Source: Bacteroidales bacterium | GTDB lineage: Bacteria > Bacteroidota > Bacteroidia > Bacteroidales > UBA12077 | Assembly (NCBI GenBank): GCA_018334675.1 | Contig: JAGXLL010000010.1 | Coordinates: 1 to 64,000, forward strand | DNA length: 64,000 bases | Reading direction: 5' to 3' | Part shown: positions 710 to 7,999 of the stretch, piece after piece | Layout of the letters: every line of letters starts with the position of its first letter | Numbering within the stretch: position 1 is the stretch's first letter | The notes under the pieces: model-generated | What the model saw: the letters and a program-made list of their open reading frames with translations, nothing else | What the model was told of the DNA's origin: nothing | The model's database searches: none | Position numbers and translations under genes: made by a program

Positions 710-2176
710 TCATTTTTCTCCGGCTACCCGAACCTCAATATCCAAATCCTCTCCTTCCGGCAGCACAATATACCCTTCCCGGGTCCTGAAGTCATTCCAC
801 GGAGAACCGTTGATTTTCACTTCCTGCAACACTGCTTCCGGAGCTTCCACGGGCAGGGGGTAAAGCTTTTCCCCCTTCTTGGCCCGAGAGATATGGAAAT
901 GAAGGGTTACCGGCTGATGACTTACCCAAAGGCCGGTATAAAGGGTGTTGAGCAAGGAATGCTCCAGGGTATGATACGAGGTCTTGCTGCGCACGGCCTT
1001 GGATCCCTTTTGAATCTCCCCGTCCGGTCCAACCGATAAATATGCACCTCCATATTGATCATCTATCAGCCGGTTGTTCCAGAACCCGGCACCCCGGCGG
1101 AAGGCCTTCAGAAAACGGTCCTGCCCGGTTTGATTGTGTAAATAGAGGGACAGCATGTTCCCATAGGCCTGGATCCACCAGGGCACATTTGTGCTGTGAT
1201 ATGAGGGGCTATGGCGGCCGATGCGGTGGTACCAGGCCCCGCTGCGCTCTTCCAGTCCATGCTGATAGAGAGGTTCCTGAAGTTTCATCGCCTTTTTCAG
1301 ATAGGCATCCTTACTGGTGATCCGGTAGAGGCGAAGCAGCATCCAAACCACCTCGGCATGGTGGCCGGTATTGACTTCGGTGCTGTCTTCCCGGGGGGAA
1401 TAGGTATAGTTCCACCTACGGTCGAAGCGCTCCAGTATCCAGGGCTCATCTTCAAAACTCATTTCCCGGACAACGTGCTGCAGGATCCGCTCCATCTGGC
1501 GCAGATAGTTTTTCTCCCGGGTAGCCAGGTACAGGTAAATCAGATAACCCGACACGGGAGCGAGCTGCGGGGAAAAATCTTTGTCGGTGTTTTGAACAGT
1601 CAAATCCCGGTTCAGACTCCGGTAATACCCACCATAAAGGGAATCCCAGGCATGTTCCTGCATGATGCGGTGGGATCGTTCGATGTAGTCGAGGATCTGC
1701 GGATCATGGGTTATGAAATAATACATGGTAAGGCCGGCGATGGCATAGGGCTGAAAAAAACCGTCCTTAGAAGAATCCACTACATGACCCCGGCGGTCGA
1801 GGGCATTGTACCAACCCCCATACTTCCGGTCCCAGCCGTGGCGAATAAGATAATCGGCCGTTTGAGAGGCCCGGCGCAGGTATTGCTTTTCACCGGTTAG
1901 CATATAACCCACCGAATAGCTGAACAGATGACGGGAGATCATGCCGGGATACTTTTCGGATCCGTTATAGGTGTTCCATTGCCGGTCCAGGAAAGTATGG
2001 AAGGTGCCATAAGCTGTATCCCGGGCCTGGCTGTCCCAGTGATCCAGGATCTCCACTCCCTGCTTCTTCCAAAAATTGGCCTCCGGTACGTTGGCCGTAT
2101 TGGGAGCTTGCTGACAACCCCCAAAAAACAAAAGGATTGAAAATAACCAGGTAAAGGAAATGCAGCGTTGGATCAT
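710..2176 (-). CDS. AGE-family (N-acylglucosamine 2-epimerase-like) lipoprotein
   Basis: The 488-residue product begins with a lipoprotein signal (hydrophobic segment then GGCQQ, lipidated Cys21), so it is probably anchored in the periplasm or outer membrane. The body has the repeated helix-pair pattern of the (alpha/alpha)6 barrel of N-acylglucosamine 2-epimerase/cellobiose 2-epimerase proteins: YGGWYNALDRRG, DGFFQPYAIAG, GGYYRSLNRD, NTGHHAEVVWML and a late EHSLLN histidine. Family members epimerise or isomerise free sugars and are normally cytosolic; a secreted lipoprotein form is less common and its substrate is unknown. Its start overlaps the stop of the upstream gene by 4 bp (ATGA), so the two are translationally coupled. 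A six-hairpin glycosidase-type role is an alternative. Confidence 0.65.
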   Translation of the reverse strand: MIQRCISFTWLFSILLFFGGCQQAPNTANVPEANFWKKQGVEILDHWDSQARDTAYGTFHTFLDRQWNTYNGSEKYPGMISRHLFSYSVGYMLTGEKQYLRRASQTADYLIRHGWDRKYGGWYNALDRRGHVVDSSKDGFFQPYAIAGLTMYYFITHDPQILDYIERSHRIMQEHAWDSLYGGYYRSLNRDLTVQNTDKDFSPQLAPVSGYLIYLYLATREKNYLRQMERILQHVVREMSFEDEPWILERFDRRWNYTYSPREDSTEVNTGHHAEVVWMLLRLYRITSKDAYLKKAMKLQEPLYQHGLEERSGAWYHRIGRHSPSYHSTNVPWWIQAYGNMLSLYLHNQTGQDRFLKAFRRGAGFWNNRLIDDQYGGAYLSVGPDGEIQKGSKAVRSKTSYHTLEHSLLNTLYTGLWVSHQPVTLHFHISRAKKGEKLYPLPVEAPEAVLQEVKINGSPWNDFRTREGYIVLPEGEDLDIEVRVAGEK

Positions 2177-5762: not shown

Positions 5763-6164
5763 ATGAGCATCAAAACCATCATGAACTTTGTTAAGGCCAT
5801 CAATGCCCATCAGGTCAAGAAAATTGCTGCACTGATGACCGATGACCACACCTTCATCAATTCCCACGGCAAAAAAGTAGTGGGTAAAGAGCCTATGAAG
5901 AAAGGATGGAAAGGTTATCTCGATTTTTTCCCCGATTATACCATTGAAATCACTGAAATCATAGAGGATGATGATCTGATCGGGCTTTTTGGCTGGGCTA
6001 CCGGGACTTACAAAACCGGCCAGACACCCGAAACCGCCAACTCCTGGAAACTACCCTGCGCCTGGAAAGCTGTTGTAAGGGACGAAAAAGTGGCGCTCTG
6101 GCAAGTCTATTCCGACACCAAAATACCCTATGAAATCATTGAAAAGAACCTGGACAATGATTAA
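5763..6164 (+). CDS. NTF2/SnoaL-like small protein
   Basis: 133 residues from ATG 5763 (MSIKTIMNFVKAIN). An upstream in-frame ATG at 5739 would overlap the C69 gene and add eight residues without family support. The pattern helix - MTDDHTFINSHGK - EPMKKGWKGYLDFFPDY - beta strands - WKAVVRDEKVALWQVYSDT is the cone-shaped NTF2/SnoaL fold (polyketide cyclase-like, ketosteroid isomerase relatives). Such stand-alone proteins are often annotated as nuclear transport factor 2 family; substrate unknown. No signal peptide, so cytosolic, unlike its secreted neighbour. It may be cotranscribed with the C69 gene. Confidence 0.75.
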   Translation: MSIKTIMNFVKAINAHQVKKIAALMTDDHTFINSHGKKVVGKEPMKKGWKGYLDFFPDYTIEITEIIEDDDLIGLFGWATGTYKTGQTPETANSWKLPCAWKAVVRDEKVALWQVYSDTKIPYEIIEKNLDND

Positions 6165-6233
6165 TCCCCCTATTTTTTCCATGAAATATTTGTTTCGTTG
6201 AAAAATATTTGCTTTCTTGCCCCATAGAATAAA

Positions 6234-6326
6234 ATGATTATGCACCTGTCCAACAACATCAGCCTTCTTAATTTGAATCGTAACAATAATCCCGCTTACG
6301 AGCAGGAAGGCTATGATTGGCAATAA
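6234..6326 (+). CDS. asnA leader peptide 1 (Asn-rich, 30 codons)
   Basis: A 30-codon frame from ATG 6234 (or ATG 6240) ends at TAA 6324-6326. Seven codons are Asn, including AACAAC at 6252-6257 and AACAATAAT at 6282-6290. It lies directly upstream of an intrinsic terminator (6345-6381) and of asparagine synthetase A. The coding region contains both pairing segments of an attenuator (6261-6269 and 6304-6312). I read it as a sensor of charged tRNA-Asn: a ribosome stalled at 6282-6290 would leave 6304-6312 free to form the antiterminator. Confidence 0.7.
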   Translation: MIMHLSNNISLLNLNRNNNPAYEQEGYDWQ

Positions 6327-6344
6327 TACACAACCAAACAAATC

Positions 6345-6381
6345 AAAAAAAGCCTTCCTGCAAACCGGGAAGGCTTTTTTT
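6345..6381 (+). terminator. Attenuator terminator 1 upstream of asnA
   Basis: A-rich/T-rich hairpin: 6345-6358 pairs with 6368-6381 over 14 bp, loop of 9 nt, ending in a run of seven T. Its left arm (AGCCTTCCT, 6351-6359) can instead pair perfectly over 9 bp with AGGAAGGCT at 6304-6312, giving an antiterminator, and that segment can also pair with AGCCTTCTT at 6261-6269. This is the 1:2 / 2:3 / 3:4 arrangement of classical attenuators. Because of the A/T-rich outer stem it could also terminate in the other direction. Confidence 0.8.
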
Positions 6382-6398
6382 ATGATCATATAAGCAGC

Positions 6399-6461
6399 AT
6401 GAAGCACCTGATCCAAAATAATAACAATAACAATAATCGCCCGCCTCCCCGGGGAAGGTGA
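6399..6461 (+). CDS. asnA leader peptide 2 (seven consecutive Asn codons)
   Basis: A 20-codon frame from ATG 6399 to TGA 6459-6461. It begins MKHLIQ, then has seven Asn codons in a row (6417-6437), then a Pro/Arg/Gly tail. The start resembles leader 1 (M-H-L near the N-terminus in both). A run of seven identical codons for the product amino acid of the downstream gene is the hallmark of ribosome-mediated attenuation. A ribosome stalled on the Asn run leaves GGGAAGG (6452-6458) free; one that finishes translation sits on it. Confidence 0.8.
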   Translation: MKHLIQNNNNNNNRPPPRGR

Positions 6462-6483
6462 CTTGTTGTTATTGTTCACGACC

Positions 6484-6514
6484 AAGCCTTCCCTGCCGGG
6501 GAAGGCTTTTTTTT
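6484..6514 (+). terminator. Attenuator terminator 2 upstream of asnA
   Basis: Stem 6484-6493 (AAGCCTTCCC) with 6499-6508, 5-nt loop, followed by T through 6514. The left arm CCTTCCC (6487-6493) is complementary to GGGAAGG at 6452-6458 inside leader 2, giving a competing antiterminator. The Asn-codon run (6423-6436) is itself complementary to 6463-6476 over 14 pairs (one G-T), a possible protector hairpin. The terminator stem has the same core (GCCTTCC) as terminator 1, which suggests the unit arose by duplication. Confidence 0.8.
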
Positions 6515-6565
6515 GTTTCCACTCAGTTCATTTCATTATTTGTTTCATCTATAAAATCCATTATC

Positions 6566-7603
6566 ATGAAAAAGCTCATCATCCCCGAGGATTACCGGAA
6601 CATGTTAACCCGGGAATCCACCGAATCAGCGATCAAATTCATCAAGGATGAATTTCAGCAGGCCCTGGCCAAAAAGCTGGATCTCAAACGTGTAACAGCT
6701 CCTATGCTTGTACTGGGAGGAACGGGCATCAACGACGATCTCAATGGCGTAGAGCGTCCGGTAAGCTTTCCTGTGAGTTCGTTAAACAGCGGACGGGTAG
6801 AAGTGGTACAATCCCTGGCCAAATGGAAGCGCATGAAGCTGGCCCAGCTCAACCATGAAGAGATCACCGGCATCTACACCGATATGAACGCGCTGCGACC
6901 CGATGAGGAGTTGGGCAACCTGCACTCGGTATATGTCGATCAGTGGGACTGGGAAAAAGTGCTGGACGGAGAGCCCCGTAGCCTGGAAACCCTGAAGTCG
7001 GTAGTGGGGAAAATCTATGAGGCCATCCGGGACACCGAGGTGGCTCTATGCGAACGCATACCTGTCTTCCGCCCCATGCTGCCCGAACAGATCACTTTCA
7101 TCCATTCTGAAGAGTTACAGGAAAGATACCCGGACAAACAGCCGGGGGAAAGGGAAGACCTGATCACCCGGGAGTATGGAGCGGTATTTGTTATCGGCAT
7201 CGGACACAGCCTGAAAGATGGCATGCCTCACGACCTGAGGGCTCCGGATTACGATGACTGGTCAACCCCCACCGTGAACGGTTACAAAGGGCTCAACGGT
7301 GATATCCTGGTCTGGAACCCGATACTAAAAAGGGCCTTTGAAATATCGTCCATGGGCATCCGGGTGAGTCCGCAATCTTTGGAAAAACAGCTTAAGATCC
7401 GTGAGTTAGAAGAAAGGAAAGAGCTGATGTTCCACAGGAAGCTTCTGAGCGGTGAGCTGCCTCAGACCATGGGAGGAGGCATCGGCCAATCCAGGCTCTG
7501 TATGCTTTACCTGAGAAAAGCCCATATCGGTGAAGTGCAGGCAGGTATCTGGCCCGATGAAATGCGGGAGATCTGTGAGAAGAACAACATTGAGCTTTTG
7601 TAA
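6566..7603 (+). CDS. asnA: Aspartate-ammonia ligase (asparagine synthetase A)
   Basis: 345 residues from ATG 6566 (MKKLIIPEDYRN); frames opening earlier run through the attenuator. AsnA makes asparagine from aspartate, ammonia and ATP in the cytosol. The fold is class II aminoacyl-tRNA synthetase-like. Sequence landmarks match E. coli AsnA almost word for word: VVQSLAKWKR, ALRPDEE, HSVYVDQWDWEKV, RAPDYDDWSTP, LNGDILVWNP, ELSSMGIRV-type (here EISSMGIRV) and TMGGGIGQSR near the C-terminus. Length is close to the family norm (about 330-345). Expression is very probably controlled by the two preceding Asn-codon attenuators. It converges with ridA, only 6 bp away. Confidence 0.97.
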   Translation: MKKLIIPEDYRNMLTRESTESAIKFIKDEFQQALAKKLDLKRVTAPMLVLGGTGINDDLNGVERPVSFPVSSLNSGRVEVVQSLAKWKRMKLAQLNHEEITGIYTDMNALRPDEELGNLHSVYVDQWDWEKVLDGEPRSLETLKSVVGKIYEAIRDTEVALCERIPVFRPMLPEQITFIHSEELQERYPDKQPGEREDLITREYGAVFVIGIGHSLKDGMPHDLRAPDYDDWSTPTVNGYKGLNGDILVWNPILKRAFEISSMGIRVSPQSLEKQLKIRELEERKELMFHRKLLSGELPQTMGGGIGQSRLCMLYLRKAHIGEVQAGIWPDEMREICEKNNIELL

Positions 7604-7609
7604 GCATGC

Positions 7610-7999
7610 TCATTCTTCCCGGCTCCGGACGGCAGCAACAGCCTCCACCTCGATCTTTGCTCCCAGGTGGAGTTCACCCGTGGGTATCACAGCCCTGGCC
7701 GGCTGATGATCTGCCATGAACTCCCTGTAGATGTGGTTGACCCGGTCCCATAGCGCAATATCGGGGATGTAGATGTTCACCTTCACCAGGTGCCTCATAT
7801 CGCTGTTGGCAGCTATGAGAATGGCTTTAAGATGTTGCAATACCAGGCGTGTTTGCTGCTCAATGGATTCTCCGGTCAACTCACCGGTATTGGGATCCTT
7901 CGGCAACTGGCCTGAAACAAATACCAAACCCTCATGCTCTATAGCCTGCGAATAATGCCCTGCGGGCTCGGGGGCATCAGATGTCCTGATCTTTTGCAT
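7610..7999 (-). CDS. ridA: RidA/YjgF family enamine/imine deaminase
   Basis: 129 residues, typical for the family. RidA proteins are trimeric cytosolic enzymes that hydrolyse reactive 2-aminoacrylate-type enamines released by PLP enzymes. Motifs: GHYSQAIEHEGLVFVSGQLP near the N-terminus, RHLVKVNIYI in the middle, and PARAVIPTGELHLGAKIEVEAVA at the end, which carries the conserved Arg and the Glu of the active site. It is transcribed alone. A 22-bp repeat also found in front of the molybdenum cofactor operons lies about 110 bp upstream of its start in the same relative orientation. Confidence 0.93.
   Translation of the reverse strand: MQKIRTSDAPEPAGHYSQAIEHEGLVFVSGQLPKDPNTGELTGESIEQQTRLVLQHLKAILIAANSDMRHLVKVNIYIPDIALWDRVNHIYREFMADHQPARAVIPTGELHLGAKIEVEAVAAVRSREE

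Follow-up and report, generated by a model that had tools for sequence, protein, structure and literature searches.

The 330-nt leader of asnA in the window (the whole analysed stretch of Bacteroidales DNA, 64,000 nucleotides) is best explained as a pair of ribosome-mediated transcription attenuators placed in series, each of which would read the supply of asparaginyl-tRNA. We assign this interpretation a probability of about 0.93. It was first proposed in a first-pass annotation made from the sequence alone, and our analysis shows that the element is real and conserved, and that it is very probably an asparagine attenuator, as proposed there.

In each of the two units, here called A and B, RNA polymerase would make a short ORF rich in Asn codons and then a terminator. 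When Asn-tRNA is plentiful, the ribosome would reach the stop codon, which lies in or beside the antiterminator strand, and this strand would be masked so that the terminator forms. When Asn-tRNA is scarce, the ribosome would stall on the Asn codons and leave the antiterminator strand open for pairing with the terminator 5′ arm, and the polymerase would continue. Transcription of asnA would require passing both units, so that their read-through probabilities should multiply, giving lower basal expression and a steeper response.

Features of the asnA leader region and of the His leaders (positions refer to the window unless a contig is named)
Feature	Position	Strand	Remarks
Leader ORF 1 (unit A)	6234..6326	+	30 codons, stop-ended frame MIMHLSNNISLLNLNRNNNPAYEQEGYDWQ, 7 Asn
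Unit A Asn codons	6252, 6255, 6270, 6276, 6282, 6285, 6288	+	
Unit A region 1 (candidate protector)	6261..6269	+	Partner is region 2; marginal (p = 0.043), not generally conserved
Unit A region 2 (antiterminator strand)	6302..6312	+	11 bp with 6351-6361
Intrinsic terminator 1 with U tract (regions 3:4)	6345..6381	+	16-bp stem, 5-nt loop
Leader ORF 2 (unit B)	6399..6461	+	MKHLIQ-N7-RPPPRGR then stop, i.e. MKHLIQNNNNNNNRPPPRGR; homologues in relatives
Seven consecutive Asn control codons	6417..6437	+	6423-6436 able to pair with 6463-6476
Unit B antiterminator strand	6450..6459	+	Partner 6486-6495; z = −4.0, p = 0.003
Unit B outer protector stem, complement of the Asn codons	6463..6476	+	p = 0.003 in the window; 4/20 units overall
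Intrinsic terminator 2	6484..6516	+	Stem 6484-6508, then U tract
asnA, aspartate--ammonia ligase (regulated gene)	6566..7603	+	TIGR00669, 411.9 bits (cut-off 292.8)
Rid-family gene, convergent, downstream of asnA	7610-7999	-	
Tandem His leaders	G000 contig C139:79400-79850, locus L283	-	Before hisG

Both leader frames, with their Asn content, and the start of asnA lie where the first-pass annotation had put them, and the gene identification agrees with it. Leader 1 has an alternative in-frame ATG (6240) besides that at 6234, and Asn-rich ORFs occupy the same place in relatives. The unit A antiterminator, annotated as nine perfect base pairs between 6304-6312 and 6351-6359, proved perfect and even longer, reaching 11 bp when extended (GCAGGAAGGCU : AGCCUUCCUGC; p = 0.003, z = −6.8 against 300 dinucleotide shuffles). 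The pairing of 6452-6458 with 6487-6493 noted for unit B is likewise perfect and covers about 10 bp once extended, with the shuffle scores given in the table (300 dinucleotide shuffles). Intrinsic terminators had been called after both leaders and were found there. When the RNA was folded, a check that the annotation had suggested, none of 200 shuffles was as stable as either whole unit (z = −5.5 for unit A, −5.4 for unit B).

The 3.09-Mb genome has just three sites with a run of five Asn codons. The asnA leader is the sole leader among these, and the remaining two runs lie within or beside ordinary frames. An antisense frame (6051-6485, minus strand) was discarded, as its Ile/Val/Asn-type residues are those expected from Asn codons and their complementary stretches read backwards.

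The competing structures recur well beyond the window. Every unit examined has an intrinsic terminator, and the leader complement of the terminator 5′ arm was better than in dinucleotide shuffles in 35 of 42 units at p<0.05 (23 of 42 at p<0.01). Among further candidate hairpins the leader complementarity had p<0.05 in 22 of 33, a set in which some of the tested segments may hold hairpins other than the terminator of the unit. The helix is rewritten between families with both pairings kept: 17 distinct terminator cores were found for unit A and 15 for unit B, and the antiterminator and terminator pairings have a median of 9 nt in common. Examples of rewritten helices are GGAAGG:CCUUCC, GGCGG:CCGCC, GCAGGC:GCCUGC and UUGUAUCG:CGAUACAA.

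The geometry of the units is also shared. In most of them the antiterminator strand begins at +11 to +19 nt relative to the last Asn codon, a distance that would place it just clear of a ribosome stalled on that codon. The stop codon is near the end of the same strand in most units, and therefore a ribosome at the stop codon would cover the strand. With the ribosome modelled at the stop codon, the antiterminator probability was near zero; with the ribosome on an Asn codon and the transcript ending before the terminator 3′ arm, it was about 0.6-0.9. At equilibrium, the terminator outcompeted the antiterminator in most modelled stalled states. Because the completed terminator usually wins at equilibrium, the switch must act kinetically during transcription, as in known attenuators.

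These alternative helices would be compatible with any sensor, including one acting in trans (T-box type tRNA binding, a riboswitch or an RNA-binding protein) that picks terminator or antiterminator in place of the ribosome, and asn genes of Firmicutes are indeed under Asn T-boxes. However, the geometry matches the ribosome footprint, the conserved sequence consists of Asn codons with no aptamer, and neither a T-box nor a riboswitch of Rfam was matched even at E≤1, so that a trans-acting sensor is very improbable. No Rfam family reached its threshold in the leader region; the closest were Thr_leader (RF00506) and Phe_leader (RF01859), with 28.7 and 29.5 bits against a gathering threshold of 55.

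The 1:2/2:3/3:4 logic of the first-pass annotation stands for the antiterminator and the terminator, but its 1:2 protector is not generally conserved. This pairing was significant in five of 20 A units and two of 20 B units, and the one described for the window (6261-6269 with 6304-6312) is present there, includes a G.U and is marginal. Pairing of the Asn codons with the strand downstream of leader 2 was also borne out in the window but seldom elsewhere, as the table indicates. The conserved core thus comprises leader, antiterminator, terminator and ribosome geometry, and the role of the 1:2 hairpin appears weaker than first noted.

In relatives, the region before asnA was found to hold Asn-rich leaders whose pairings show compensation, as the first-pass annotation would predict. 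The combination of Asn-rich leader, intrinsic terminator and competing antiterminator precedes asnA in the genus of the window, in its sister genus and in more than a dozen other families of the order, mostly as a tandem with unit A first and unit B second. Within the window genus, G001-G003 carry leaders 1 and 2, and the cut contig of G004 carries leader 2. Among sister-genus genomes, both are present in G010, G011, G013, G014 and G020, and the tandem was found wherever the contig spans both units; G009 and G023, where contigs end nearby, have unit B, and G021 is represented by a fragment only. Across the wider order, one or both units were found upstream of 12 of 75 sampled asnA genes (mostly one per genus), and the other 63 are without the element. 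Small ORFs with at least five Asn in nine residues lie upstream of these 75 genes at 12 loci on the coding strand versus one on the other strand. Further leaders in the order came from searching with a codon pattern and with a covariance model built on unit A, and the best matches of that model (R1) in the order with a readable downstream gene (E up to 8e-5) all precede an asparagine synthetase. Outside the order but within the same class, one or two Asn leaders precede asnA in G469, G595, G716 and G679.

The two units are of different types. Unit A has split Asn clusters and a GGAAGG-like antiterminator, unit B has an unbroken Asn run and then Pro codons, and unit A is always 5′ of unit B where they form a tandem. 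Several relatives carry unit A alone (e.g. G340, G129, G326 and G106) or unit B alone (G056, G338, G169 and G263). Such cases would fit a narrower form of the attenuation model, in which one unit alone is physiologically relevant and its partner is redundant or determines basal expression. We consider this sub-case doubtful, as the A-then-B tandem is kept in many element-bearing genomes of many families and the genome of the window also has tandem His leaders.

Those His leaders (MKNNPIHMSHHHSHRKHGPVL and MIQNTIHTVHHHHHHHGNSLMMRKGCGMY, each ended by a stop codon and followed by a terminator) stand before hisG. Both are kept in G003 (L305); G002 (L304) has an intact second His leader but no evident first one. 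We lean slightly towards the wider view that in Bacteroidota two leaders for the same amino acid, in series and of differing geometry, would form a general two-stage sensor, with Asn on asnA and asnB and His on hisG. If true, this would provide multiplicative, low-leak control, and it would need ribosomes that follow RNA polymerase closely in this phylum.

In unit B of relatives, e.g. at L172, L201 and L207, two or three Pro codons come immediately after the uninterrupted Asn run, in some cases with a stop codon next. Polyproline (EF-P) stalling was considered as the cause of the PPP motif and set aside. Because these codons lie opposite the antiterminator strand, and the motif is reduced to PP and a stop in some units, RNA pairing is the simpler reason for them, although polyproline pausing may have a role. 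The recurrence of Asn runs and of the (R)PPP motif in unit B might also suggest that the leader peptides are functional poly-Asn microproteins and that the RNA structure is incidental. However, outside the Asn codons the length and sequence of the peptides vary freely, the codons for Pro and Gly-Arg are within the antiterminator strand or face it, a stop codon directly follows PP in several unit B frames, and the frames precede asparagine synthetase genes and terminators. We therefore give this microprotein function almost no credence. In a few pairwise comparisons of leader ORFs within the sister genus, nonsynonymous codon differences exceeded synonymous ones, as expected if nothing beyond the Asn codons and the RNA helix is important, and this excess would not be independent evidence of coding.

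At a locus of an Aminicenantes MAG (L050:1840-1995), an Asn-rich frame (ending in KNNKNNNWVVTATQ and a stop codon) overlaps a hairpin before asnA that is without a U tract. This frame may be an Asn leader of a different, independent type.

The leader element is not confined to asnA. G301 has no asnA match, and its tandem Asn leaders are in front of asnB, whose product matched asparagine synthase B (PRK09431) with 651.6 bits, above the cut-off of 499. Three genomes of one other genus (G187, G279 and G082) also have asnB preceded by an Asn leader, making four genomes in all, and AsnB is not homologous to AsnA. The asnA-less members of the window's own family have no close AsnB homologue, so this route did not lead to the element there, and none of the asnB genes checked along with them in other families follows an Asn leader. 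Because the element also precedes the unrelated asnB, it is tied to asparagine synthesis and not to one gene lineage. The exchange of asnA for asnB, as seen in these sequences, is strong extra evidence that the element would sense asparagine or charged tRNA-Asn.

A SnoaL-like gene ends at 6164, upstream of the leaders, and asnA itself looks monocistronic. We searched the leader region of the window for a sigma-70-type promoter and found none, and leader 1 of the window has no clear Bacteroidota promoter consensus upstream. In six relatives, a perfect match to the Bacteroidota-type promoter TTTG-N19-TAnnTTTG lies just 5′ of leader 1, and no consistent consensus of this type was found between units A and B. 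As these six promoters are directly before leader 1, both leaders are likely to be on one transcript.

The two terminators are real and strong and stand downstream of another gene, and thus they could be ordinary terminators of the SnoaL-like gene or insulators, with Asn-rich frames arising by chance. Against this, the Asn leaders are conserved at a fixed distance, the antiterminator complementarity survives in rewritten helices, the same element is found before asnB, and the consensus promoter of the six relatives lies just ahead of leader 1. An origin of the arrangement as plain terminators or insulators is highly improbable on this evidence, and serial attenuation remains our reading.

The covariance model also picked up apparent leaders for other amino acids. 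A Thr/Ile-rich leader (MTINNTTIITIITTGKYFGGK with a stop codon in L264) and a terminator precede an aspartokinase gene in L264, L266, L268 and L272 (about 1500-1640, minus strand); that of L264 reached a Thr_leader score of 40.5, under the gathering threshold of 55. In L275 and L276 (about 1500-1630), an Ile/Val-rich leader (MITHTTITVIINVIGTKYRPGK with a stop codon in L275) and a terminator precede ilvD, and in L273 (about 1500-1640, minus strand) a Cys-rich leader (ending in YCCMCKNHRRKCCY and a stop codon) and a terminator precede a nitrite/sulfite reductase gene. L277 (minus strand) has a Met-rich leader ORF (MNMYMMCYYSYGLR and a stop codon) with a terminator at about 1501-1630, followed at 1369-1481 by a SAM riboswitch (RF00162 at 78.6 bits) with an O-acetylhomoserine sulfhydrylase gene downstream, which makes two different predicted sensors in series. 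A leader with Met, Lys, Thr and Asn codons (MKTNNNSNKCMKKHFLKGRV and a stop codon in L274) stands with a terminator before asd in L274 and L271 (about 1490-1630). Its enrichment in aspartate-family residues suggests that it is possibly a multivalent sensor.

If the attenuation model is correct, asparagine would be added to the amino acids sensed by leader-peptide attenuation, and one sensor design would have been kept on two unrelated asparagine synthetases. In Bacteroidota, the conservation of such attenuators would imply that the ribosome keeps close to the transcribing RNA polymerase. Serial placement of two leaders for one amino acid would be a natural test of how checkpoints in series sharpen a metabolic response, and the Thr/Ile, Ile/Val, Cys and Met leaders suggest a broad set of attenuators unmatched by Rfam at its thresholds.

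According to the first-pass annotation, no Asn leader is known to have been described for asnA, in agreement with the Rfam result and with our literature search, which covered sources other than subscription journals and yielded no description of an Asn leader peptide or of an asnA attenuator. Asparagine supply is coupled to asn genes in other ways elsewhere: in Firmicutes, Asn T-boxes bind the tRNA directly, and in Escherichia coli the DNA-binding regulator AsnC controls asnA. Unlike the mechanism proposed here, both of these act without leader translation. The trp, his, thr, leu and phe leaders of Proteobacteria are closer, in which a short ORF with a stretch of codons for the product of the pathway precedes an antiterminator and a terminator that exclude each other, and the stop codon is near the antiterminator strand. 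The Bacteroidota element would differ from them in sensing Asn and controlling asparagine synthetase, and it differs in having two units in series and a protector helix that is weak or absent in most relatives.

Leader-peptide attenuation is not new in this phylum, since strong clues for it in amino-acid biosynthesis operons of Flavobacterium psychrophilum are given in passages of PMC9723704, and the Bacteroid-trp motif (RF01692), in passages of PMC2864571, is also from this phylum. The texts of PMC9723704 and PMC2864571 do not mention asparagine, and the tandem arrangement of the asnA leader is absent from those passages. A tandem as such has a precedent, since the mgtCBR leader of Salmonella carries tandem attenuators: as described in PMC3641672, it has, like the asnA leader, two short ORFs on one transcript, and their translation is anticipated to steer stem-loop formation. 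That leader governs a Mg2+ transporter and virulence operon (PMC3641672), whereas both asnA leaders carry codons for one amino acid, which is what the regulated enzyme produces. What is new here is the amino acid, Asn, the regulated enzymes, the two leaders in series for the same signal, and the breadth of their conservation.
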